Source of the DNA: an uncultured Microbacterium sp. | GTDB taxonomy: Bacteria; Actinomycetota; Actinomycetes; Actinomycetales; Microbacteriaceae | NCBI RefSeq assembly: GCF_947489255.1 | Contig: NZ_CANLCY010000002.1 | Span: forward strand, 655,848 to 719,847 | Direction: 5' to 3' | Length of the DNA stretch: 64,000 nucleotides | Shown: positions 46,210 through 60,097 of the stretch, piece after piece | Layout of the letters: each line of letters begins with the position of its first letter | Position numbering within the stretch: position 1 is the first letter of the stretch | Program-made: the position numbers and the translations under genes | Notes under the pieces: generated by a model | What the model was told of the DNA's origin: nothing | Databases searched by the model: none | The model's input: only the letters and a program-made list of their open reading frames with translations

Positions 46210-48171
46210 CTACCGAGACAGGTGCGTGTGGATGGCCTCGGCCAGCGTCGGGCCGATGCCCGGGAGCACCGTCATCTCGTCGGGGGTCGCGTTCTTCAGC
46301 GCCGAGACGGAGCCGAAGTGCCGCAGCAGGGCCTTGATGCGGGCGTCGCCGAGACCGGGAACCTCCGACAGGACGCTGGAGATGTCGCGCTTGCGGCGCT
46401 TGCGCTGGTGGACGATCGCGAAGCGGTGGGCCTCATCACGCAGTCGTTGCAGCAGGTACAGCGCCTCCGAGGTGCGCGGCAGGATCACGGGGTACTCCTC
46501 ATTCGGCAGCCACACCTCCTCGAGACGCTTGGCGATGCCGCACAGCGCGATCTCCTCGTGACCGGCGTCGGCCAGGGCGCGCGCCGCCGCCGCCACCTGC
46601 GGCTGGCCGCCGTCGACGACGAGCAGCTGCGGACGATACGCGAAGCGCGGACGTTTGCGGGCGGTGACGACGTCGCCGTCGCTCGTGGCCTCCTCCGACT
46701 CGGGATCGGCCACGATCGCACCGTTCACCGTCTCGGGCTCGATCTCGTCGGGCCGGTCGAGGTAGGCCAGTCGGCGCGAGAGCACCTGGTACATCGAGTC
46801 GGTGTCGTCCGTGGTCTCGGCGACCCCGAACGAGCGGTACTGGTCTTTGCGCGGCAGGCCGTCTTCGAACACGACCATGGATGCCACGACATTGGTGCCC
46901 GCGAGATGCGAGATGTCGAAACACTCGATGCGCAGGGGCGCCTCGGTCATGCCGAGCGCCTCCTGCAGGTCGGTGAGCGCCTGCGAGCGGGCGACGTAAT
47001 CGCTCGTGCGACGGGTCTTGTGCAGCATCAGCGCCTGCTGCGCGTTGAGAGTGGCGGTCTTCAGCAGGTCGGCCTTGCGTCCGCGCTGCGCGACCTGCAG
47101 GGTCACCGGGCGCCCACGGCGCTCGCGCAGCCAGTCCTCCAGCTGCTCCGCATCGTCGGGCAGCTCGGGCACGAGCACCTGACGGGGGATGTCGGTCGCC
47201 TCGGCATCGCCGTACGTGCGCTGCAGCACCTGGTCGACGAGCTCGGCCCCGGAGATGTCGATCTCCTTCTCGATCGTGGTGGCGCGCACACCGCGGACGC
47301 GACCTCCGCGCACGACGAAGTGCTGCACCGTCGCGGCCAGCTCGTCCTCCGCGATGCCGAAGAGATCGGCATCCGTGTCGGAGGCGAGCACGAGCGCGCT
47401 CTTTCCGAGCACCGCGTCGATGGCCTGCAGGCGGTCGCGGTAGTGGGCGGCCGACTCGTAGTCCATCGCCGCCGAGGCCTCCTTCATGCGGGCGGTGAGC
47501 TCGCGCGTGAAGCGCTGGTCGCCGCCCGACATGAACGCGATGAAGTCGTCGACGACCGCGCGGTGCTCCTCGATCGTCACCTTCATCGAGCACGGCCCGC
47601 CGCAGCGGCCGATCTGCCCGGGGAAGCACGGACGACCGGATGCCATGGCCTTCTTGTAGGAGGAGTCGCTGCACGTGCGGATCGGGAAGACCTTGATCAT
47701 GAGGTCGATCGTGTCGTGCACCGCCCACACCTTCGGATACGGCCCGAAGTACTTGGCCCCGCGGATCTTGTGGTTACGCGTGACGATGACGCGCGGCGCC
47801 TCGTCGGCCAGCGTGATCGCCATGAACGGGTACGACTTGTCGTCGCGGTAGCGCACGTTGAACGGCGGATCGAACTCCTTGATCCACATGTACTCGAGCT
47901 GCAGCGAGTCGACGTCGCTGGGCACGACCGTCCACTCGACGCTGGCCGCGGTCGTGACCATGCGGCGCGTGCGTTCGTGGAGGGAGTGCAGCGGCGCGAA
48001 GTAGTTCGACAGTCGCGCGCGGAGGTTCTTCGCCTTGCCGACGTAGAGCACCCGACCGTCGGCATCCCGGAACCGGTAGACACCGGGGTTCGTGGGGATC
48101 TCCCCCGCTTTCGGTCGGTAGGGCAGCTGCGACATCCGTTTGCGCGATGCGGACGCAGGGGCGGAGGCCAT
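46210..48171 (-). CDS. uvrC: UvrC, excinuclease ABC subunit C
   Basis: Makes the two incisions of nucleotide excision repair. The 653-residue protein has an N-terminal GIY-YIG nuclease (G-V-Y-R-F...[12 protein letters not shown]) and a Cys cluster (C-S-D-S...C-F-P...C-G-G-P-C). A UVR motif lies near residue 225, then the RNase-H-like nuclease (E-C-F-D-I-S-H-L) and tandem HhH motifs at the end (V-P-G-L-G-D-A-R and L-P-G-I-G-P-T). Start 48171 lies 3 bp past the uvrA stop; ATG 48135 (M-S-Q-L-P-Y-R-P) is an alternative. It should be co-transcribed with uvrA. Confidence 0.95.
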
Positions 48172-48174
48172 GGC

Positions 48175-51141
<2,967 letters not shown>

Positions 51142-51147
51142 CTGTTA

Positions 51148-51170
51148 AGTCTAGGTCGACCCTCCGACAT
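51148..51170 (-). promoter_or_regulatory. PafBC/RecA-NDp-like DNA-damage promoter of uvrA
   Basis: On the minus strand: ATGTCGGAG (51170-51162), an 8-nt spacer, then TAGACT (51153-51148), and 6 nt later the GTG start. This fits the known actinobacterial damage promoter TTGTCRGTG-N8-TAnnnT in spacing and at 7 of 9 upstream positions. The same layout occurs before uvrB and the GIY-YIG gene. Confidence 0.8.
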
Positions 51171-51390
51171 CGGCCCCGGGTTCGCCCCGAGCGCACGGAT
51201 GTGCGAGGCTCCCGCCCCGCTCGGGCCGCGGGACGGGCTCGGCGGAACGACTCCCGACCCGCCGCGTCCGGTCGGACGCTCCGGCGGAGGACGGCCGTGT
51301 CCCGTCACCGGCGGTCCGAGGCCCCCGTCTCGTCCGATGTCCCGCATCGCGGAGAGGCGCCATCGGACCGCGAGACGACGACGACGTCGC

Positions 51391-51819
51391 TCAGTCGCGC
51401 ACGGGCGCCGCGAACGGAGCGAGACCGTCGCGCAGGGCGATGAGCGAATGCTCGTCGGCGCCGACGCGCTGCATGATCTTCCCCGGCACCTCGAGCGCCG
51501 CAGCGCGCAGCGCCCGCCCCTCGTCGGTGAGGTCGATGTCGAGGACCCGCTCGTCGTCGGCACGACGCCGGCGCACCACCCGCCCCTGCGCCTCGAGACG
51601 CTTCACCAGGGGCGAGAGGGTCGCCGGCTCCATCGCGAGTTCCGCGGCCAGCGCTCCCAGCGACCTCGGGGCGCTCTCCCACAGGGCGAGCATCACGAGA
51701 TACTGCGGGTGCGTCAGCCCGAGAGGCTCGAGCACGGGCCGATAGATCGCCACCACGTTCCGCGCCGCGGTGACGAGGGCGAAGCACACCTGATTCTCCA
51801 GCTTGAGGGGATCGTCCAT
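51391..51819 (-). CDS. MarR-family regulator of the OhrR type
   Basis: A winged-helix repressor of 142 residues. The N-terminal L-E-N-Q-V-C-F-A-L, with Cys at residue 12, matches the redox-sensing Cys region of OhrR proteins. Y-R-P-V-L-E-P-L-G-L-T-H-P-Q-Y-L-V-M-L-A-L-W-E is the OhrR/MarR dimer and HTH entry, and the wing is R-R-R-A-D-D-E-R. OhrR normally represses an organic-hydroperoxide reductase (ohr). Here the divergent neighbour is a small Cys protein instead. AAGGAGG precedes the ATG. A palindrome at 51839-51850 is the likely operator. Confidence 0.88.
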   Translation of the reverse strand: MDDPLKLENQVCFALVTAARNVVAIYRPVLEPLGLTHPQYLVMLALWESAPRSLGALAAELAMEPATLSPLVKRLEAQGRVVRRRRADDERVLDIDLTDEGRALRAAALEVPGKIMQRVGADEHSLIALRDGLAPFAAPVRD

Positions 51820-51838
51820 CGCCTCCTCCTTCGAATAG

Positions 51839-51850
51839 TTAGTACACTAA
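51839..51850. promoter_or_regulatory. Candidate MarR/OhrR operator
   Basis: TTAGT-AC-ACTAA is a perfect 5-bp inverted repeat around a 2-bp centre in an AT-rich island. It lies between the divergent MarR gene and the small Cys-protein gene and reaches the first possible ATG of the latter (51850). The regulator could repress both genes from here. Confidence 0.55.
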
Positions 51851-51855
51851 TGATC

Positions 51856-52092
51856 ATGACACGAAAGGATGCCGATCGCCCATCGCTCCGCGCACGCGTG
51901 CGCGAGGCCGGCGGCTGGTACCAGTACCTCAACACCCGACTGATCCGCGTCGCGGGACCGGCATCCGTCGGCCCGTACGAGACCACACCCGAGCCCGTGC
52001 GCACGGGACGCCCGTGCCCCCTGTGCGGCCACGCGATGGCCGAGCACACGGTCGACCGGACGGGCCCCAAGCCGCTCCTGCACTGCCCCTGA
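51856..52092 (+). CDS. Small Cys-rich (zinc-ribbon-like) protein divergent from the OhrR-type regulator
   Basis: A 78-residue protein with a basic N-terminus and Y-Q-Y-L-N-T-R-L, then G-P-A-S-V-G-P-Y-E. The C-terminal half carries C-P-L-C-G-H and ends in H-C-P, which could bind a metal. I do not know its function. An ATG 6 nt upstream (51850) is equally possible. No Shine-Dalgarno is visible, so a leaderless start is plausible. Regulation by the adjacent repressor is inferred from the shared intergenic palindrome. Confidence 0.65.
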   Translation: MTRKDADRPSLRARVREAGGWYQYLNTRLIRVAGPASVGPYETTPEPVRTGRPCPLCGHAMAEHTVDRTGPKPLLHCP

Positions 52093-52118
52093 CGGCGGCG
52101 ACTCCTCGCCCGCCCGCG

Positions 52119-52541
52119 TCATCCCAACCGCGGACGCCCGTGCGCATCCAACGGCCACCCGGGATTGACCGCGACCTCCCACGGGTGGCCGTCGGGATCG
52201 ACGAAGACGCCGGAATAGCCGCCCCAAGCCGTGGGAGCGCCACCTCGCGCGAGTCTCGCCCCGGCTGATCGGGCCGCCTCCAGGATCGCGTCGACCTCGG
52301 CCTCGGTACCGACGTTGTGCGCCAGGGTGACGCCTCCCCACCCGCCCCCGTCCACGACCTGCGAATCCTCGGCCAGGGAGTCCCGCACCCAGAGCGCGAC
52401 GACGAGCCCGCCGGTGTCGTAGAAGGCCACCTCACCGTCGACGGAGGCCGGGTGAGGATGCCAGCCGAGTGCGCCGTAGAAGGTGACCGCCCGGGTGAGA
52501 TCACGCACGCCGAGGGTGATCAGTGTGACGCGCTGCTCCAC
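52119..52541 (-). CDS. VOC/glyoxalase superfamily protein
   Basis: A 140-residue protein with one vicinal-oxygen-chelate domain. The opening V-T-L-I-T-L-G-V-R-D-L-T-R-A-V-T-F-Y is classic, as are F-Y-D-T-G-G near the middle and G-V-F-V-D-P-D-G-H-P-W-E near the end with the conserved His/Glu. Such proteins range from glyoxalases to drug-binding proteins; the substrate is unknown. It converges on the small Cys-protein gene and its GTG start is 8 bp from the UvrB-end tandem repeat. Confidence 0.85.
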   Translation of the reverse strand: MEQRVTLITLGVRDLTRAVTFYGALGWHPHPASVDGEVAFYDTGGLVVALWVRDSLAEDSQVVDGGGWGGVTLAHNVGTEAEVDAILEAARSAGARLARGGAPTAWGGYSGVFVDPDGHPWEVAVNPGWPLDAHGRPRLG

Positions 52542-52550
52542 CGGTCGTCC

Positions 52551-52610
52551 TTCCCCGGGTCAGGCGTGCCCGGCCCGCTCTTCCCCGGGTCAAGCGTGCC
52601 CGGCCCGCTC
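52551..52610. repeat. 30-bp tandem duplication covering the uvrB stop
   Basis: 52551-52580 and 52581-52610 are the same 30-bp unit with one mismatch (A/G at position 13). The second copy encodes the last residues of UvrB (E-R-A-G-H-A-stop). The first copy repeats the same residues and a second in-frame TGA downstream. The unit length is exactly 10 codons. Confidence 0.9.
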
Positions 52611-54659
52611 CATCGCGCGCAGCTCCTTCTTCATGTCCTGCACCTCATCGCGCAGACGCCCCGCCAACTCGAACTTGAGCTCGGCGGCGGCGGCCAGCAT
52701 CTGCTGGGTGAGGTCGGCGATCGTGGACTCGAGCTGATCCGCACCTTCGGCCGCGATCCCCGTGCGCCGCAGCGACGGCGTCGGCGACTTGCCCTTGCCC
52801 GCCTTGTCGTTGCGGGCGAGCAGCTTCTTGGTGTCCGTCGCCTCGCGGTTGAGCACCTCGGTGATGTCGGCGATCTTCTTCCGCAGCGGCTGCGGATCGA
52901 TGCCGTGCTCGGTGTTGTACGCGATCTGCTTCTCGCGCCGACGTTCCGTCTCGTCGATGGCGTTGCGCATCGAATCGGTGATCTTGTCGGCGTACATGTG
53001 CACCTCGCCCGAGACGTTTCGCGCCGCACGGCCGATCGTCTGGATGAGGGAGGTCCCGCTGCGCAGGAATCCCTCCTTGTCGGCGTCGAGGATCGCCACG
53101 AGCGAGACTTCGGGGAGGTCGAGACCCTCGCGCAGCAGGTTGATGCCGACGAGCACGTCGTAGACCCCGGCTCGCAGCTCCGTCAGCAGCTCGACGCGTC
53201 GCAGGGTGTCGACATCCGAGTGCAGGTACCTCACGCGCACGCCGTGCTCGCCGAGGAAGTCGGTGAGCTCCTCCGCCATCTTCTTGGTGAGGGTGGTGAC
53301 GAGCACGCGCTCGTCGCGCTCGACGCGCACCCGGATCTCCTCGAGAAGGTCGTCGATCTGCCCCTTCGAGGGCTTGACGATGATCTCTGGGTCGACCAGC
53401 CCCGTGGGGCGGATGATCTGCTCCACGACGCCGTCGGCGATCCCCATCTCGTAGCGCCCCGGGGTGGCCGAGAGGTAGACCGTCTGCCCCACGCGCTCCT
53501 TGAACTCGTCCCAGCGCAGCGGACGGTTGTCCATGGCGCTGGGCAGACGGAAGCCGTGCTCGACGAGCGTTCGCTTGCGCGACGCGTCGCCCTCGTACAT
53601 CGCACCGATCTGCGGAACGGTCACGTGCGACTCGTCGATCACGAGCAGGAAGTCGTCGGGGAAGAAGTCGAGCAGCGTGTGCGGCGGGTCGCCCGCCATG
53701 CGGCCGTCCATGTGGCGCGAGTAGTTCTCGATGCCCGAGCAGAAGCCCAGCTGCTGCAGCATCTCGAGGTCGAAGGTCGTGCGCATGCGCAGCCGCTGCG
53801 CCTCGAGCAGCTTGTTCTGCGACTCGAGCTCCTTCAGGCGCTCGGCGAGTTCGTGCTCGATGGTGCCGATCGCCCGCTGCACCGTCTCCGTGCCCGCGAC
53901 GTAGTGCGACGCGGGGAAGATCGGCACCGAGTCCATCTTCTCGATGACGTCGCCCGTCAGCGGATGCAGGGTGTACAGCGCCTCGATCTCGTCACCGAAC
54001 ATCTCGATGCGGATCGCGTACTCCTCGTAGACCGGGATGATCTCGATCGTGTCGCCCCGCACGCGGAAGTTGCCGCGGGAGAAGTCGACGTCGTTGCGGT
54101 TGTACTGCATCGAGATGAACTTGCGGATGAGCGCGTCGCGGTCGTACCGCTCTCCCACCTGCAGGGCGACCATGGCGCGCAGGTATTCCTCGGGGGCACC
54201 GAGGCCGTAGATGCACGAGACCGTCGAGACGACGACGACGTCGCGACGCGAGAGCAGCGAGTTGGTCGTCGAGTGACGCAGCCGCTCGACCTCGGCGTTG
54301 ATCGAGCTGTCTTTCTCGATGAACGTATCGGTCTGCGGCACGTAGGCCTCGGGCTGGTAGTAGTCGTAGTACGACACGAAGTACTCGACCGCGTTGTTCG
54401 GCATGAGTTCGCGGAACTCGTTCGCCAGCTGCGCGGCGAGGGTCTTGTTGTGCGCCAGGACGAGGGTCGGGCGCTGCACCTGCTCGACGAGCCAGGCCGT
54501 GGTCGCGGACTTGCCCGTTCCGGTGGCGCCGAGCAGCACGACGTCGGTCTCGCCCGCGTTGATGCGCCCGGCGAGCGCTGCGATGGCCTGCGGCTGATCA
54601 CCGGACGGGGAGTATTCGCTGATGACCTCGAAAGGACGGACGGAGCGAGTGGGCTGCAT
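52590..54659 (-). CDS. uvrB: UvrB, excinuclease ABC subunit B
   Basis: The DNA-loading helicase-like subunit of nucleotide excision repair, 689 residues. Walker A is G-A-T-G-T-G-K-S near residue 45. The beta-hairpin [12 protein letters not shown] lies near residue 100, and the DEAD-like box is V-I-D-E-S-H. The helicase motif G-R-A-A-R-N and a C-terminal UVR domain complete it. ATG 54659 has no ribosome-binding site. It is exactly 6 nt from the -10 of a PafBC-type promoter, so it is probably leaderless. Its 3' end is duplicated in tandem. Confidence 0.96.
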
Positions 54660-54665
54660 GATTCC

Positions 54666-54688
54666 AGCGTAGGCGGGGCCTCCGACAT
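54666..54688 (-). promoter_or_regulatory. PafBC/RecA-NDp-like DNA-damage promoter of uvrB
   Basis: On the minus strand: ATGTCGGAG (54688-54680), an 8-nt spacer, TACGCT (54671-54666), then 6 nt to the ATG. The upstream 9-mer is identical to those before uvrA and the GIY-YIG gene. Confidence 0.8.
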
Positions 54689-54772
54689 CGGGGTCGGCTT
54701 GCGTTCGCCGTCCGCGAGCACGAGGGCCTTGCTCAGCTCACCGGCGCGTCGACGAGCCGGCCGCGACCCCGG

Positions 54773-55375
54773 TCACGCGGTCGGGGAGATCCGCGCCCAG
54801 AGGTCGTCGACCTGCCGCCGCGTGGCATCCATCGTCGTGGCGGTGTCGATCACCACGTCCGCCAGCGCCAGCCGCTCCTCGTCGGAGGCCTGCGAGCCGA
54901 TGCGGGCACGGGCGTCGGCCTCGGTGAGACCGCGATCGTCGATGAGACGCCGAACGCGCGTCTCGACCGGAGCGTGCGCGACGATCACCAGGTCCCAGGC
55001 GTCGCCGGCGCGCGCCTCCGCGAGCAGCGGGACGTCGTAGACCACCACGGCCCGCGGGTCCCGGGCGAACGCCTCGTCGAAACGCCTCTGCGACTCGGCC
55101 TTCACCGCGGGGTGCACCAACGCGTTCAGAGTGGCCAGCCGGTCGGGATGACCGAACACGCGCGCTCCGAGACCGGGCCGGTCCAGCGCACCGTCGGCGG
55201 TGAGCACCTCGTCTCCGAACTCCCGGGCGATCGCGGCGAGCACGGCCGAGCCGGGCGCCTGCACCTCCCGCACGATCGCGTCGGCGTCGACGACGACCGC
55301 GCCGCGCTCGGCCAAGAGGGCGGAGATGGTGGACTTGCCGGAGGCGATCCCACCCGTCAGCGCGAGAAGAGGCAC
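54773..55375 (-). CDS. coaE: Dephospho-CoA kinase
   Basis: Performs the last step of coenzyme A synthesis. The 200-residue protein has the P-loop G-G-I-A-S-G-K-S-T near residue 8, D-A-D-A-I-V-R-E (substrate Asp), and Y-D-V-P-L-L in the lid region. The family R-V-R-R-L-I-D-D-R and R-I-G-S-Q motifs follow. GTG 55375 is the start because the conserved domain begins at residue 4. It sits upstream of uvrB on the same strand, as in other Actinobacteria. It is separated from uvrB by 113 bp that contain the uvrB promoter. Confidence 0.93.
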   Translation of the reverse strand: MPLLALTGGIASGKSTISALLAERGAVVVDADAIVREVQAPGSAVLAAIAREFGDEVLTADGALDRPGLGARVFGHPDRLATLNALVHPAVKAESQRRFDEAFARDPRAVVVYDVPLLAEARAGDAWDLVIVAHAPVETRVRRLIDDRGLTEADARARIGSQASDEERLALADVVIDTATTMDATRRQVDDLWARISPTA

Positions 55376-55489
55376 CCGAAGAGGATGCCATACCGCGCCG
55401 CCGCCGGCACCCCCGCGCGCCGCCGCGCGGCGTCGTCTACGATTCCTCACAGGTGGGAACGCTCTCTCCCTCCCGACGAAAGCTCCGCC

Positions 55490-55864
55490 ATGCCCGATAC
55501 CCGCACCACGGTGGTGATCGAGGACGACCTCGACATCCGCACGCTCGTGTCCGCCGTGCTCGAGAGCGCGGGGTTCACGGTGCACGCCGCGAGCACCGGG
55601 CTCGACGGCATCGAACTGGTCCGCCGGCACGAACCGGTGGTCACGACCCTCGACGTGAGCATGCCGGGCATCGACGGTTTCGAGACCGCGCGGCGCATCA
55701 GGGCATTCAGCGACACGCGCATCCTGATGGTGAGCGCTCGCGCCGATGAGGCGGAGCAGCGCATGGGACGCGAGGCCGGCGCGGACGACTACCTGACCAA
55801 GCCGTTCCGCCCGCGCGAGCTGCGCCGGCGCGTCGAAGACCTCGCCGCGGACGCGGGCTCCTGA
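55490..55864 (+). CDS. Stand-alone response-regulator receiver protein
   Basis: A 124-residue receiver domain with no output domain. The acidic pocket is E11-D12-D13, the phospho-acceptor is Asp55 (T-T-L-D-V-S-M-P-G), and the conserved Lys is in Y-L-T-K-P-F near residue 106. Single-domain receivers act by protein contact, as CheY or Spo0F do. It converges on the GGDEF-like/histidine-kinase pair, only 8 bp apart at the ends, and the kinase is a plausible partner. Confidence 0.9.
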   Translation: MPDTRTTVVIEDDLDIRTLVSAVLESAGFTVHAASTGLDGIELVRRHEPVVTTLDVSMPGIDGFETARRIRAFSDTRILMVSARADEAEQRMGREAGADDYLTKPFRPRELRRRVEDLAADAGS

Positions 55865-55872
55865 CCGGGCCC

Positions 55873-57030
55873 TCACCCGATCCGGAAGGACTGCTCCCCC
55901 GTCGCGGCGGCCCGCGCGGCCGCTTCGTCGGCCCGCAGCGTGAGCGCCTGCGAGTCGTACCCGTGATCCGCCGTGACCGCGACACCGACGCCGACCACGG
56001 GCACCACCGAGATGCTCAAGTGCGAAAGATCGCTCACGACGCTGTCGTGCAGCGCGCGCGCGACGCGCCCGATGTCGGTCGTCGGTCCGGTCGTGAACGC
56101 GACCGCGAGGCCGGTTGTGTCGGCCTCCCCCACCAGCGCCATCGTGGGCGAGTACCGGCGGACCGCGCGGCGCAGCTCCCGAGCGATCTGTTCCGCGTCG
56201 TCCGGGCCGAACGCCACGGCGACCCGCCGCAGATCGTCGATGCGGATGCCGATCACGCAGACGCCCTCGCCGGCGAGCTCGGCCCGCCCGCAGACGATGG
56301 CGAGCGTGGCCTCGAACGACTCGCGGAACAGCACGCCGTTGGCATCCACCGACAGTCGGCGGACGTCGGGCGAACCGCGCAGGGTCGACTCGTTCGCCCG
56401 GAGCACCGAGGTCACCGTCACCGCCGCGATCACGAGGGTGATCGTCAGCAACGCCGACACCCGGGTGTCGAAAACCGTGCGGAACAGCTCGCTGTCCGGC
56501 CCGCTCGCGAGGAACACCCCCGTGCGGCTGACGAACCAGACCGCTTCGATGGCCAGGATGATCGTCAGGCCCACCGTGCTCCAGCGCCGGCCGATGGCGC
56601 CGCGTCGCGTCTCGACCGCCCCGAGGACGGCGAACAGCGCGTTGCCCAGGAAGAACGGGATGGCACCGGCCCAGTCGCCTCCCGCCGGACCGGCCGCGAG
56701 GGCCGACACGATCACGAGCAGCACGACGGCGCCGAGGAGGATCGCGGACCCTCGCAAGGCGCGGCCGTTGAAGGCGACGCACCCCAGCCAGATGAACCCC
56801 GTCGCCGCGACGAACGCGCCGTTGCCCACGGCCACCGCCACGAAGACATCGGGCAGCAGCAGCCAGGCGATGTAGCAGAGCGCGGAGAAGGTGCCCGCGA
56901 GGTAGGCGCCGGACCAGAGGCGCCCGGGCAGGCCGTCCTTGAGCATGATCGTGTCGAGCAGGTACATGACCGCGGAGACCACGATGACGAGGGCTGCCGA
57001 GGCCTGCAGCGTCAGGACGTCGAAGATCAT
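55873..57030 (-). CDS. Membrane protein with a degenerate GGDEF-like domain
   Basis: A protein of 385 residues with about seven or eight transmembrane helices in the first 210 residues. A cytoplasmic domain of GGDEF fold follows (D-A-N-G-V-L-F-R-E-S-F-E onwards, with V-I-G-I-R-I-D-D-L-R). The position of the catalytic G-G-D/E-E-F loop reads V-G-E-A-D-T-T-G, so diguanylate cyclase activity is unlikely. It may instead be a receptor or scaffold. It overlaps the histidine-kinase stop by ATGA, implying joint translation. Confidence 0.8.
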   Translation of the reverse strand: MIFDVLTLQASAALVIVVSAVMYLLDTIMLKDGLPGRLWSGAYLAGTFSALCYIAWLLLPDVFVAVAVGNGAFVAATGFIWLGCVAFNGRALRGSAILLGAVVLLVIVSALAAGPAGGDWAGAIPFFLGNALFAVLGAVETRRGAIGRRWSTVGLTIILAIEAVWFVSRTGVFLASGPDSELFRTVFDTRVSALLTITLVIAAVTVTSVLRANESTLRGSPDVRRLSVDANGVLFRESFEATLAIVCGRAELAGEGVCVIGIRIDDLRRVAVAFGPDDAEQIARELRRAVRRYSPTMALVGEADTTGLAVAFTTGPTTDIGRVARALHDSVVSDLSHLSISVVPVVGVGVAVTADHGYDSQALTLRADEAAARAAATGEQSFRIG

Positions 57031-58730
57031 TCGCCCTCCCGGGGGTTTCGCGGAAGGCGCACCGTGAACACGGCGCCCTCGCCCCGAGCGGTCCGCACGG
57101 TGATCTCGCCGCCGTGGGCGCGCGCGAGGTCACGGCTGATCGCCAGGCCGAGGCCGCTGCCGTGCGCCGAGGAGTTGCGGACGGCATCCCCGCGGAAGAA
57201 GCGCTCGAAGAGGCGGCCCTGCTCGGCGACGGAGATCCCGGGCCCGTTGTCGGCCACGAGGATCGAGACCGAATGCAGGTCCTGTTGCACCGACACGCTC
57301 ACCGCCGCGCCGCGGGGGATGTACTTGATGGCATTCGACAGGAGGTTGTCGACGATCTGCCGCACGCGGCGCGCGTCGATCACCGCTCGCGCCTCGACGA
57401 CGCCGGAGGCATCGATGTGCACACCGTGATCCACGGCGCGCGGGGCGATCGACTCGATCGCCGCCCGGACCACCGCCGCCACATCCGTCGCGCGCAGTTC
57501 GAGCTCGACCCCCACCCCCTCGCGGGAGGTGGCCGACAGGGCGAGGATGTCGGCGACCAGCTCCAGCAGACGCGACGCGTTGCGCTCGGCCACCGCCAGC
57601 CTGTCGCGGGTCGCGGGAGCGATGGAGGGGTCGTCGAGGGCGAGCTCGAGGTAGCCGATGATCGAGGTGAGCGGGGTGCGCAGTTCATGCGACACGCTCG
57701 CGACGAGGTCCTCCCGTGCACGACGCGCCTGCTCCTCGACCGTGACGTCCCGCGAGACGATGACCCCGCTGATCTCGCCGTTCTCGGCCGCCGGCAGGCG
57801 GCGCGCCGTGACGCTCAACGCGCGCCGGTCTTCTCCGGGTCCGCCGTACCAGACCATCTCGCCCTCGAAGACCTCACCGGCCCGCGCGCGGGCGAGGGGC
57901 GTCGAATCCGCCGCGATAAGGGTCGATCCGTCGGCGGCGAACACCTCGATCTCACGTCCCAACACGTCGGTGGTGGCCAGCAGACGAGCGTGGGCGGCGT
58001 TCGTGACCGCGAACTCGCCGGCCGCCGTGACGCGGGTGACGCCGAAGTCGACGGCATCCAGCACCTCGGTGACCAGATCCTCCTGCCGACGCGCGCGCTC
58101 CACGGCGCGGCGGAGCTCCGCCGACTGCTTCTCCAGGAGCTCCCGCTGCGCCTGCGCGCGACGCGCGGTGAAGTGGGCGATCGTCGACAGCGCCGCGACG
58201 ACGAAGGGCAGCAGCAGCGTCGACGCGGTGAAGCGCTGCAGGTCGACCGCCATGGATTGGTGGAACATCACGATCGTCACCGAGACCGAGACCGCGACGA
58301 TGCCCCGTACCCCGAAGACCGTCCCGATCCACAGGGCCGGGAAGGTCCACAGCAGCCCGAGCCCCGCCAGCGGCGCGCTCTCGCGCATGAGGGCGATGGC
58401 CACGACGTCGACGATGGGGAGCAGAGCCGCCCACACCTGCGGCACACGGTCCCACGGGAGGAGGACCGCCGAGATGGCACCCGCGAAGAGCAGGGCGGCA
58501 CCGGCGAGGAACCGACTGGGATCGATCACGTGCTCGACCGAGATCGACACCAGGATGCCGATGAACGCCGCCGCGGCCAGGAGCATCTGGTTCGCCACGA
58601 TGCTGCGCCGCAGGCCGAGGCGCACTCGGGAGATGCGGGGCGCCATGGCCTCGACGATATCGTTCCGCGGGTCCACGACCGTGTGATCCGACCGCGGCAC
58701 GCCGACGTCGGGCGCCGGCGCGGCGCTCAC
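57027..58730 (-). CDS. Membrane histidine kinase with PAS domain
   Basis: A 567-residue sensor kinase. Six or seven hydrophobic helices occupy about residues 45-185. A short coiled coil leads to a PAS domain (E-V-L-D-A-V-D-F-G-V-T-R-V). The catalytic core has H-box V-S-H-E-L-R-T-P-L-T-S, N-box D-N-L-L-S-N-A-I-K-Y, G1 D-N-G-P-G-I and G2 G-S-G-L-G-L-A-I. No response regulator is in the same operon; the convergent stand-alone receiver is a candidate partner. The GTG start lies 3 bp after the preceding stop. Confidence 0.92.
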   Translation of the reverse strand: MSAAPAPDVGVPRSDHTVVDPRNDIVEAMAPRISRVRLGLRRSIVANQMLLAAAAFIGILVSISVEHVIDPSRFLAGAALLFAGAISAVLLPWDRVPQVWAALLPIVDVVAIALMRESAPLAGLGLLWTFPALWIGTVFGVRGIVAVSVSVTIVMFHQSMAVDLQRFTASTLLLPFVVAALSTIAHFTARRAQAQRELLEKQSAELRRAVERARRQEDLVTEVLDAVDFGVTRVTAAGEFAVTNAAHARLLATTDVLGREIEVFAADGSTLIAADSTPLARARAGEVFEGEMVWYGGPGEDRRALSVTARRLPAAENGEISGVIVSRDVTVEEQARRAREDLVASVSHELRTPLTSIIGYLELALDDPSIAPATRDRLAVAERNASRLLELVADILALSATSREGVGVELELRATDVAAVVRAAIESIAPRAVDHGVHIDASGVVEARAVIDARRVRQIVDNLLSNAIKYIPRGAAVSVSVQQDLHSVSILVADNGPGISVAEQGRLFERFFRGDAVRNSSAHGSGLGLAISRDLARAHGGEITVRTARGEGAVFTVRLPRNPREGE

Positions 58731-58733
58731 GGA

Positions 58734-59417
58734 TCAGAAACCGAAGTCGCCTCCCCCGAAGTCCCCTCCCCCGAAGCCTCCGCCGTCGAAGCCCCCGACG
58801 TCCCCTCCGCCCGTGTCGGCCGCAGCATCCGCTCCGGATCCATCCGCTCCGGCATCCGCGGCGACGCCGTCCGCGTAGCCCGCGTCGTATCCGGGATCGA
58901 ACATCGCACCCACGAGCGCCGAGCCCACGACGTAGCCGCCGATGGTGCCGAGCATCGACGCGCCGAGCATCGATCCGAAGCCCGGTCCGGCGCCGCCGCC
59001 GAAGGAGCGACCGCCGAAGGTCCGCTCCATGAAGCCGGGCTGCGAGTACTCCGCGCGCGTCGCCGCGCGGGCGAGTGCGCGGGGGTCGTCGCTCGCCGGC
59101 CGCTCCGACGGCGTCAATCCCGACGACATCTCGTCGAGCACCTGGCGGCGCTGCGCCGGCGTGAGTCGACCGAAGGCCTCGGCGTGCACCTGCTCGACCG
59201 TCTCGGGAGGCGCGGTGCGCAGCAGATAGCGGTAGCGCTCGATCGCCCGCTGATCGTCTTCGGTTCCGGATGCCGCCGAGGGCGCTGCCGCGGGAGGCGG
59301 CGGCGCGTAGCGTCCCTCTGCGTCGCGCATCCCGCTCGCCTGACCGCGGGAGGCGGGTGCCGCGGCGCGGGCGGTGCGGTCGTCCCCCGACCCGAACAGT
59401 CGATCGAATAGTCCCAT
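58734..59417 (-). CDS. Gly-rich hypothetical protein
   Basis: A 227-residue protein without a recognised catalytic motif. It begins M-G-L-F-D-R-L-F-G. A helical segment (E-R-Y-R-Y-L-L-R-T-A-P-P...L-T-P-A-Q-R-R-Q-V-L) follows near residues 60-95. Then come a Gly-rich stretch, one hydrophobic segment around G-T-I-G-G-Y-V-V-G-S-A-L-V-G-A, and a C-terminus of G-G-G-D-F repeats. GAGAGG precedes the ATG. It is encoded just upstream of the histidine kinase (3-bp gap), suggesting co-expression. Confidence 0.7.
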   Translation of the reverse strand: MGLFDRLFGSGDDRTARAAAPASRGQASGMRDAEGRYAPPPPAAAPSAASGTEDDQRAIERYRYLLRTAPPETVEQVHAEAFGRLTPAQRRQVLDEMSSGLTPSERPASDDPRALARAATRAEYSQPGFMERTFGGRSFGGGAGPGFGSMLGASMLGTIGGYVVGSALVGAMFDPGYDAGYADGVAADAGADGSGADAAADTGGGDVGGFDGGGFGGGDFGGGDFGF

Positions 59418-59516
59418 GCCTTGGCCTCTCTCGTCGTCGACCCCACGCTACGGCGGGGATCGCGTGGGAGGGAGGGGTTGCCCGTGCGCTCACCGCGTCG
59501 TACGCCCGTGAAGACG

Positions 59517-60068
59517 TCATCCGCGACGGGCGATGGCCTCGCTCGTCCACCGTGCGTACAGCGCCCACGGGTCGTCGACGCCCGCCGCCAACGCGGCGAC
59601 GTGCGCGTCGAGAGCGGCGCTGCGCCGGAACCACTCCGCGCGGCCGAACCTCTCGTCGGCGAACTGCCGGTGACGGCGCTGCTCGACGAGACGGTCCCCC
59701 GGCTCGAAGGCGAGCAGCTCGTCGTGCCACACGGCGGCGAGGCGCTGCCGGGGTCGTGCGCTCGTCCCGATCTTGATGCGGTCGTCGAACCTCAGGTAGT
59801 AGACGACGTCGACCCGGGGCGGCGGGAGCTCGTCGTCGACGGGCTCGCCGTGGCGCCATTCGCACACGGCGCACAACCATCCGCTCGGCCACCGCACGCC
59901 CAGACGCGACCCGCACAGGCGGCACGGCGCCGGCAGCAGGTCGGTGACGCCGTCGGTCTCCGCCGCCCACTCCGCCCCGACCGCGAGATGCCACGTGCAC
60001 ACCGAGACAGGTGCGTCCGGGGCGACGCCCCGGCCGCAGCCGGGCACGAGACAGACGACGGTGGGCAC
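59517..60068 (-). CDS. GIY-YIG superfamily protein with Cys clusters, under a DNA-damage-type promoter
   Basis: A 183-residue protein of the MUG113/T5orf172-like branch of GIY-YIG nucleases. The N-terminal 80 residues carry C-x4-C (C-L-V-P-G-C), C-R-L-C-G and C-A-V-C-E, likely zinc sites. The nuclease core is V-V-Y-Y-L-R-F...I-K-I-G-T-S-A-R-P-R-Q-R-L, ending with a conserved R-A-E-W-F. GTG 60068 is preferred over GTG 60074 because it lies 6 nt after the -10, exactly as in uvrA and uvrB. Substrate unknown; nuclease activity is inferred from the fold. Confidence 0.8.
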   Translation of the reverse strand: MPTVVCLVPGCGRGVAPDAPVSVCTWHLAVGAEWAAETDGVTDLLPAPCRLCGSRLGVRWPSGWLCAVCEWRHGEPVDDELPPPRVDVVYYLRFDDRIKIGTSARPRQRLAAVWHDELLAFEPGDRLVEQRRHRQFADERFGRAEWFRRSAALDAHVAALAAGVDDPWALYARWTSEAIARRG

Positions 60069-60074
60069 GGGCAC

Positions 60075-60097
60075 ACGCTACGCCCGGCCTCCGACAT
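60075..60097 (-). promoter_or_regulatory. PafBC/RecA-NDp-like DNA-damage promoter of the GIY-YIG gene
   Basis: On the minus strand: ATGTCGGAG (60097-60089), an 8-nt spacer, TAGCGT (60080-60075), then 6 nt to GTG 60068. Layout and upstream 9-mer are identical to those of uvrA and uvrB. Confidence 0.78.

Follow-up and report, generated by a model that had tools for sequence, protein, structure and literature searches.

The closest described counterpart of the system analysed here is the PafBC regulon of mycobacteria. The PafBC motif of Mycobacterium tuberculosis is defined as TGTCGG-10N-TA-3N-T (PMC8151990), an older consensus being tTGTCRgtg-8nt-TannnT (PMC5656591); PafB sits at the -26 motif, PafC is bound to domain 4 of sigma-A and single-stranded DNA (ssDNA) activates the complex (PMC11804915), and recA, uvrA and uvrC are PafBC-regulated in mycobacteria (PMC8223512). 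A general rule is spoken against by Streptomyces venezuelae, in which the mycobacterial motif is reported not to be conserved (PMC9380542). Here we consider a stretch of 64,000 nucleotides (nt) from an uncultured Microbacterium sp., hereafter the host (genome of 3.53 Mb in 12 contigs); this stretch, C2:655848-719847, is called the window, and positions without a contig prefix refer to it. Three genes of the window, namely uvrA, uvrB and the gene of a small GIY-YIG protein, carry the same promoter-like element. We consider it highly probable that the three elements are PafBC-dependent promoters, and that a GIY-YIG nuclease is co-induced with uvrA-uvrC and uvrB, recurs in the damage response of the family and is paired with a DUF4379/Vsr-like protein. 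The promoter type is already known and its link to the GIY-YIG gene is conserved in many relatives; what is new is the pairing of this gene with a second nuclease gene.

The element, ATGTCGGAG-N8-TAnnnT, has three exact matches in the whole window, all on the minus strand: at 51170-51148 for uvrA, 54688-54666 for uvrB and 60097-60075 for the GIY-YIG gene. The respective start codons, GTG at 51141, ATG at 54659 and GTG at 60068, lie 6 nt behind the -10 box in every case, exactly as the first-pass annotation of this DNA had described. On the same strand, the open reading frame (ORF) of uvrA spans 48175-51141 (Pfam UvrA_inter and UvrA_DNA-bind), that of uvrB 52590-54659 (Pfam UvrB_inter and UvrB) and that of the GIY-YIG gene 59517-60068, encoding 183 amino acids (aa) with two Cys/His clusters and a T5orf172/MUG113-like GIY-YIG domain; the list of ORFs places the start of the latter at 60074, an in-frame GTG abutting the box. 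The core TGTCGG-N10-TA-N3-T (as defined in PMC8151990) is present in all three elements, as are the upper-case positions of the older consensus (PMC5656591), of which the lower-case positions are departed from, with A for the first t and GAG for gtg in all three. Four copies with up to two mismatches occur in the window, against a mean of 1.72 in shuffled sequences; since 13 of 100 shuffles reach four, this count proves little, and the proof lies in the count for the whole genome.

In the host genome TGTCGGAG-N8-TAnnnT matches 48 times, against none for the reversed control, and the TGTCNGYG form adds 19 matches, against one for its control. Of 80 genomes of the family, sampled as one per genus, 79 contain the related pattern TGTCGGNG-N8-TAnnnT; its count is highest in the host (72 versus 1 in the control) and approaches the control level in small genomes. 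Among the sites within fetched loci, an ORF of at least 150 aa has its start codon 6 or 7 nt past the -10 box at 48 of 68 distinct TGTCNGNG-N8-TAnnnT sites (33 and 15, respectively), the background being 597 such starts for 59190 random positions, or 1.0%. For the 48 exact sites of the host, a script that favours nearby ORFs picked the start at 6 nt for 27 and at 7 nt for 10. Because the start codon usually follows the -10 box by 6-7 nt, the mRNAs probably lack a leader. No -35 hexamer is apparent from base counts over the 20 nt preceding the element at 37 sites, and the only preference beside the element is for C/G (C in 27 and G in 30 of the 37 sites).

The genes behind these sites were characterised with Pfam scans of 49 proteins (41 of them at exact sites) plus uvrA and uvrB, leaving out four exact sites (L026, L036 and one each in L039 and L047). 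Genes for repair or replication follow 18 of the 48 exact sites: RecF/SMC_N, a RadA-like protein (named by eye), two UvrD-type helicases, an AlkZ-like glycosylase, RecG, NAD-dependent ligase, SRAP, MgsA/RarA, UvrA, UvrB, DnaX, SbcD, an Exo_endo_phos nuclease, FtsK, RecA (with the start 51 nt away), the alpha subunit of DNA polymerase III and an RNase_H_2 protein. Hence recA and other repair genes, before which the first-pass annotation had suggested looking for the element by a genome scan, do carry it. The GIY-YIG gene, a DUF4379 protein and three DUF222 proteins, one with HNH, are also behind exact sites. Where the seventh base is T or C instead, the genes that follow encode RecQ, a gyrase-B-type topoisomerase, DNA polymerase I (whose site departs at the fifth base too) and an Mfd-like protein, so named by eye from its UvrB_inter match.

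It could be argued that the element serves the host generally, as a strong leaderless promoter answering to no damage regulator, its placement before repair genes reflecting their housekeeping expression. Behind about half of the 48 exact sites there are indeed genes that have no evident DNA role or no Pfam match, including those for IMPDH-like, radical SAM and alpha/beta hydrolase proteins, transporters (MFS), aldo/keto reductases and catalase; in this respect the concern that the pattern might be equally common before unrelated genes, raised in the first-pass annotation, is borne out in part, with the 18 repair or replication genes standing on the other side. Yet TGTCGG at 10 nt from the -10 box is what has been published as the PafBC motif (PMC8151990), the host possesses the genes for PafBC and, as shown below, LexA boxes are found at the GIY-YIG gene of other lineages. 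We therefore regard a promoter of purely general use as very unlikely.

The candidate regulator is present. Four genes for WYL proteins were found in the host genome, two of which are adjacent and correspond to pafB and pafC; their products match the chains of solved PafBC structures (6sj9, with E values of 5e-36 and 6e-29, and 7p5x). PafC has the HTH_PafC domain, and its gene is followed by tatA, tatC and a gene for a DSHCT helicase (L145, C2:606000-618000), an order that we take to be that of mycobacteria also. The other two WYL-domain genes lie at C5:502364-502561 (L068) and C4:611010-611198 (L069). A Pup ligase was not found in the host genome, which would be a case of PafBC without pupylation. 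With respect to the mycobacterial regulon, the host therefore has an identical core motif, both PafB and PafC, and the element before recA and uvrA. It differs in four ways: the searched form has A at the lower-case t of the older consensus, a position outside the core for which forms with T and C exist as well; the distance from the -10 box to the start codon is 6-7 nt at most sites; a search for a Pup ligase found none; and genes for GIY-YIG and DUF4379-Vsr proteins are among the sites.

The link to the PafBC (also called RecA-NDp) promoter that the first-pass annotation had drawn from the spacing is thus strengthened by the identity of the core, the sites in the same genome, the promoters of orthologues considered below and the presence of PafB with PafC. 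One could maintain that the motif is right and that its main regulator is ClgR or another activator, given a report (cited in PMC5656591) that mycobacterial ClgR binds it as well. Later work assigns both the regulon and the -26 motif to PafBC (PMC8223512, PMC11804915), and we judge ClgR, or any other activator in its place, to be most improbable. PafBC dependence in the host would imply the following sequence of events. After DNA damage, PafBC activated by ssDNA would enable the housekeeping RNA polymerase to use the elements as sigma-A promoters of the -26/-10 kind, having no -35; transcripts would start at or beside the start codon, producing leaderless mRNA, and uvrA-uvrC and uvrB would be induced together with the small zinc-cluster GIY-YIG nuclease.

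The protein encoded by the third gene combines two N-terminal clusters, C6 C11 C24 H27 and C49 C52 C66 C69, with a GIY-YIG domain characterised by Y90 Y91, K99 I100 G101, R109, E122, E129 and H133. Conservation was counted over 72 rows of orthologues, one of which (L138) is unreadable. The residues of the domain are each kept in 71 of the 72 rows, and those of the second cluster in 70 each; the first cluster is kept somewhat less (C6 in 62, C11 and C24 in 63, H27 in 65), there being short variants without it. Which of the conserved Tyr, KIG, Arg, Glu and His residues are catalytic is an assumption on our part. At E <= 0.01 the Pfam models T5orf172 and MUG113 recognise 68 of 71 family members each, with a best value of 1.5e-8, but the protein of the window itself scores under both cut-offs. 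The AlphaFold model has a predicted local distance difference test (pLDDT) value of 93.9 and a predicted template modelling (pTM) score of 0.71, and its matches in BFVD are phage proteins of the GIY-YIG/MUG113/T5orf172 kind with probability 1.00; among the results of the fold search in PDB, the UPF0213 protein 1zg2, which is a GIY-YIG protein (PMC1564403), ranks eighth with probability 0.14. The modelled fold and the conserved active-site-type residues are those of a GIY-YIG nuclease, from which nuclease activity may be predicted. A sequence search of PDB with the GIY-YIG profile produced a single match (E 0.12) that was taken as chance, NCBIfam gave a chance-like excisionase match in 1 of 71 members and nothing else, and PADLOC has no match for either this protein or the partner described below.

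In the family, matches to the GIY-YIG protein, two of them weak, were found in 73 of 150 genomes, representing 43 of 85 genera, with one match per genome and mostly 52-69% identity. Among the best 80 of 353 relatives, the named ones belong to Microbacterium, Frigoribacterium, Naasia, Leifsonia, Labedella, Schumannella and Arthrobacter, and a search at the level of the order, in which eight first-look candidates were scored per genome, found a match in 29 of 396 genomes. This distribution bears on the possibility that the gene is a phage-type nuclease, domesticated or still selfish, that hitch-hikes on a damage promoter as in the induction of prophages and is no repair enzyme. Relatives of its catalytic domain are indeed phage proteins (phrog_8604, the BFVD matches and 64 phage records, the latter restricted to the C-terminal part), five records from Streptomyces plasmids cover the same part, and the gene is patchy, with firm matches in 71 of 150 family genomes. 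Against such an origin of its present role stand the occurrence of one match per genome across so many genera at the identity just given, the retention of active-site-type and most zinc residues in the orthologues, and a co-occurring second nuclease gene that has no match in the phage collection; moreover, the phage and plasmid records all fall short of 80% coverage of the protein. The comparison with the phage-type subgroup of T5orf172/MUG113 is equally two-sided: the Pfam matches, the fold and the presence of KIG for YIG are shared, whereas the protein here has two N-terminal Cys/His clusters and in the window scores under the Pfam cut-offs, and its gene is chromosomal, single in each genome and preceded by a damage-type promoter. 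A hitch-hiking phage nuclease is, in our opinion, unlikely, and we return to a damage-response enzyme recurring in about half of the examined genomes of Microbacteriaceae as the preferred interpretation.

This interpretation gains from the promoters of the orthologues, which were searched for GTCNG-N10-TAnnnT followed by an in-frame start. A stricter first pattern (22 of 72 orthologues) missed sites without the leading T or last G, took some wrong starts and was replaced. The pattern is present in 40 of 71 loci of the first set of orthologues, other spacers from 4 to 17 giving 0 to 2 each, and in 60 of 80 named loci (the best 80 of the 353 relatives), with one for other spacers. Once both sets were combined with the loci of the order-level search and the window's own gene, and duplicates removed, it was found at spacer 10 in 114 of 166 distinct loci and in none at spacers 8, 9, 11 and 12. 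Hence the element that the first-pass annotation proposed to look for upstream of GIY-YIG orthologues is conserved there in many relatives, with exact spacing, even if the counts are not independent because the orthologues are related. As a calibration, 39 of 40 family genomes (40 taken of 50) show this layout before uvrB.

Some of the loci without the strict element have a different signal. The LexA consensus is given as tCGAAC-N4-GNNCGa (PMC9380542), and TCGAAC-N4-GTTCGA was found near the start with at most one mismatch in 7 (two perfect) of the 52 loci where the element is missing and with at most two in 9, versus 2 and 97 of 2924 control windows, respectively; the 114 loci having the PafBC-type element possess no LexA box with two or fewer mismatches. 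The box overlaps an in-frame start codon in loci of the Labedella and Arthrobacter types, while it lies some 45-55 nt upstream in L094 and L242; on a tree of 161 proteins computed with FastTree, the nine boxes require four changes. The host gene itself shows no sign of a LexA operator, the core GAAC-N4-GTTC having no match near C2:715900. It appears, from these promoter sequences, that one nuclease gene is addressed by two unrelated damage regulators in different lineages, and this, which we rate as the strongest argument, would indicate that its wiring to DNA damage has been selected.

The sharing of a promoter type by the GIY-YIG gene, uvrA and uvrB, and of a GIY-YIG-type domain by its protein and UvrC, creates the question of whether the protein substitutes for UvrC or assists it in nucleotide excision repair, as the first-pass annotation had suggested. 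The uvrC gene of the window (46210-48171, minus strand) is intact, with the usual domains (Pfam GIY-YIG, UVR, UvrC_RNaseH_dom and HHH), and starts 3 nt behind the stop of uvrA, probably in the same operon; the idea that the GIY-YIG protein acts instead of UvrC consequently finds no support. By Pfam, the protein has neither the UvrB-binding (UVR) domain nor the second nuclease domain that are both recognised in the UvrC of the window. Its gene lies about 1.5-5 kb from uvrB within the genus (the window and seven relatives). In 50 genomes of other genera the two genes share a contig in 28 cases, the closest being 73 kb apart, because of which we dropped physical linkage to uvrB as support. A function beside UvrC, or in its place, thus seems quite unlikely.

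A second gene became apparent from the orthologue loci themselves, which contain 31 further promoter-like sites at spacer 10 versus one or two at other spacers. Seven of these sites belong to uvrB of close Microbacterium relatives and two to other genes, while 22 precede one and the same gene, here called the partner, which in every case except L122 faces the GIY-YIG gene tail to tail. An earlier search of 24 loci with stop-to-stop frames had returned no conserved neighbour, being swamped by antisense frames; the partner surfaced through its promoter. The host partner (L017:1530-2393, C2:432366-433229) is outside the window, and its promoter is among the 48 exact sites. Its N-terminal part matches DUF4379 (Pfam, E 2.1e-6) and its C-terminal part has a weak Vsr match, TIGR00632, seen in all four proteins scanned (E 0.013 to 0.048), which with 15.7 bits is far below the vsr cut-off of 97.85; D197, E208 and D210 are invariant in 36 rows of partners. 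The two best folds in PDB for its model (pLDDT 85.0) are 1vsr (probability 0.84, E 0.09) and 1cw0 (0.57, E 0.17), neither significant by E, followed by MUS81 (0.16). A sequence search of PDB with the partner profile gave no match, nor did the phage collection at E 1e-5.

The two genes tend to travel together. In the 150 family genomes, 55 have both, 16 the GIY-YIG gene only, 3 the partner only and 76 neither, leaving out the weak GIY-YIG matches of G064 and G129, seven partner matches limited to the C-terminal part (E 1e-28 to 1e-32) and six with E above 1e-8; when those seven are counted, the first three figures become 59, 12 and 6. With one genome per genus, the figures are 31, 8, 1 and 45 (Fisher 1e-14), or 31, 8, 1 and 30 after removal of 15 genomes under 2.4 Mb. 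In 20 of these 55 genomes the two genes are at most 2 kb apart, 16 times convergent (with gaps of 9 to 167 nt), twice divergent and twice on the same strand; they are on one contig and about 29 kb or more apart in 14, including the host (282 kb), and on different contigs in 21. The partner has its own PafBC-type promoter at spacer 10 in 30 of 50 distinct loci, against one for other spacers between 4 and 17. In many species, then, the GIY-YIG nuclease would belong with a DUF4379 zinc-finger/Vsr-like nuclease under the same type of promoter, likely forming a damage-induced module of two nucleases.

Several observations weigh against this reconstruction, in addition to the unrelated genes behind many sites and the reports on ClgR. 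Of the 150 family genomes, 77 have no GIY-YIG match; 52 of the 166 orthologue loci are without the strict element, even if by eye many of these differ slightly from it, and the LexA box with at most one mismatch accounts for only seven. The window protein scores below the Pfam cut-offs (15.6 vs 22.3 and 15 vs 20 bits), fold searches of PDB with either protein returned nothing at E <= 0.001, and one genome per genus is the only correction for phylogeny in the co-occurrence.

In functional terms, a bolder proposal, which we find evenly balanced between being right and wrong, is that Microbacteriaceae (and, for the GIY-YIG part, some Arthrobacter) possess an undescribed repair module in which two zinc-bearing nucleases, one of GIY-YIG type and one of DUF4379/Vsr-like, PD-(D/E)XK type, would jointly act on a single class of damage intermediate, under leaderless PafBC promoters in most lineages and LexA operators over the GIY-YIG start codon in others. 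The combination of a GIY-YIG-plus-zinc enzyme with an enzyme of Vsr/MUS81 fold resembles, presumably and by analogy only, the branch-resolving nucleases SLX1 and MUS81 of eukaryotes. The likeness to SLX1, a GIY-YIG protein with a C-terminal RING finger (PMC1564403), concerns the joining of a GIY-YIG nuclease to a zinc-binding domain; the zinc clusters are N-terminal here, and the probable partner is not SLX4 but a nuclease of Vsr-like kind. Similarly, the partner resembles the Vsr mismatch endonuclease in its best fold matches, the weak TIGR00632 match and the three invariant acidic residues, while differing from it in the DUF4379-type N-terminal domain, the PafBC-type promoter, the score far below the vsr cut-off and the fold E values lacking significance. 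A known promoter has in this way served as a handle on function, singling out two uncharacterised nucleases that travel together. If confirmed, the module would add a step of repair or processing to the textbook set, in a genome having PafBC without a detected Pup ligase, and would belong to a damage regulon readable from the genome, in which transcription and translation seem to begin at the same base.

Published expression data bear on the predicted regulon. According to PMC12029717, exposure of Curtobacterium aetherium, also of Microbacteriaceae, to UV-C induces uvrA, uvrB and 'a GIY-YIG nuclease' in RNA sequencing, the latter being possibly the orthologue of the window gene; the induced list also includes a PD-(D/E)XK protein, which may or may not be the partner. 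Many of the induced genes coincide with sites found here from sequence alone, with RecX, RmuC and Fpg/Nei as induced genes not seen at our sites. Together with the sites in the host genome, the orthologue promoters and the presence of PafB and PafC, this list supports the predicted place of the GIY-YIG gene in a DNA-damage regulon. In the accessible literature, which mostly excludes subscription papers and supplements, we found no description of the pair of GIY-YIG and DUF4379/Vsr-like proteins.

Some further sites deserve mention in their own right. The DUF222 proteins of L011, L019 and L044 (sites C2:202306, C2:644565 and C5:240988), the first with HNH also, have a leaderless promoter of PafBC type, so that a damage role for this actinobacterial family becomes testable. 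The PafBC-type element also precedes a radical SAM gene that matches CofH_C (L045, C5:254758) and a catalase gene (L043, C4:599633), hinting at members of the regulon related to oxidative stress. The same leaderless layout precedes a 174-aa protein without Pfam match (L001, C1:34683) and a long protein, rich in Ser/Ala/Pro at its N-terminus and having no Pfam match in the examined part (L010, C2:172671). Finally, an ImuA'-like gene (L027, recognised by eye and having no Pfam match) combines a PafBC-type element at C3:131393-131414 with a neighbouring GAAC-N4-GTTC palindrome, similar to a LexA box, at C3:131358-131369.

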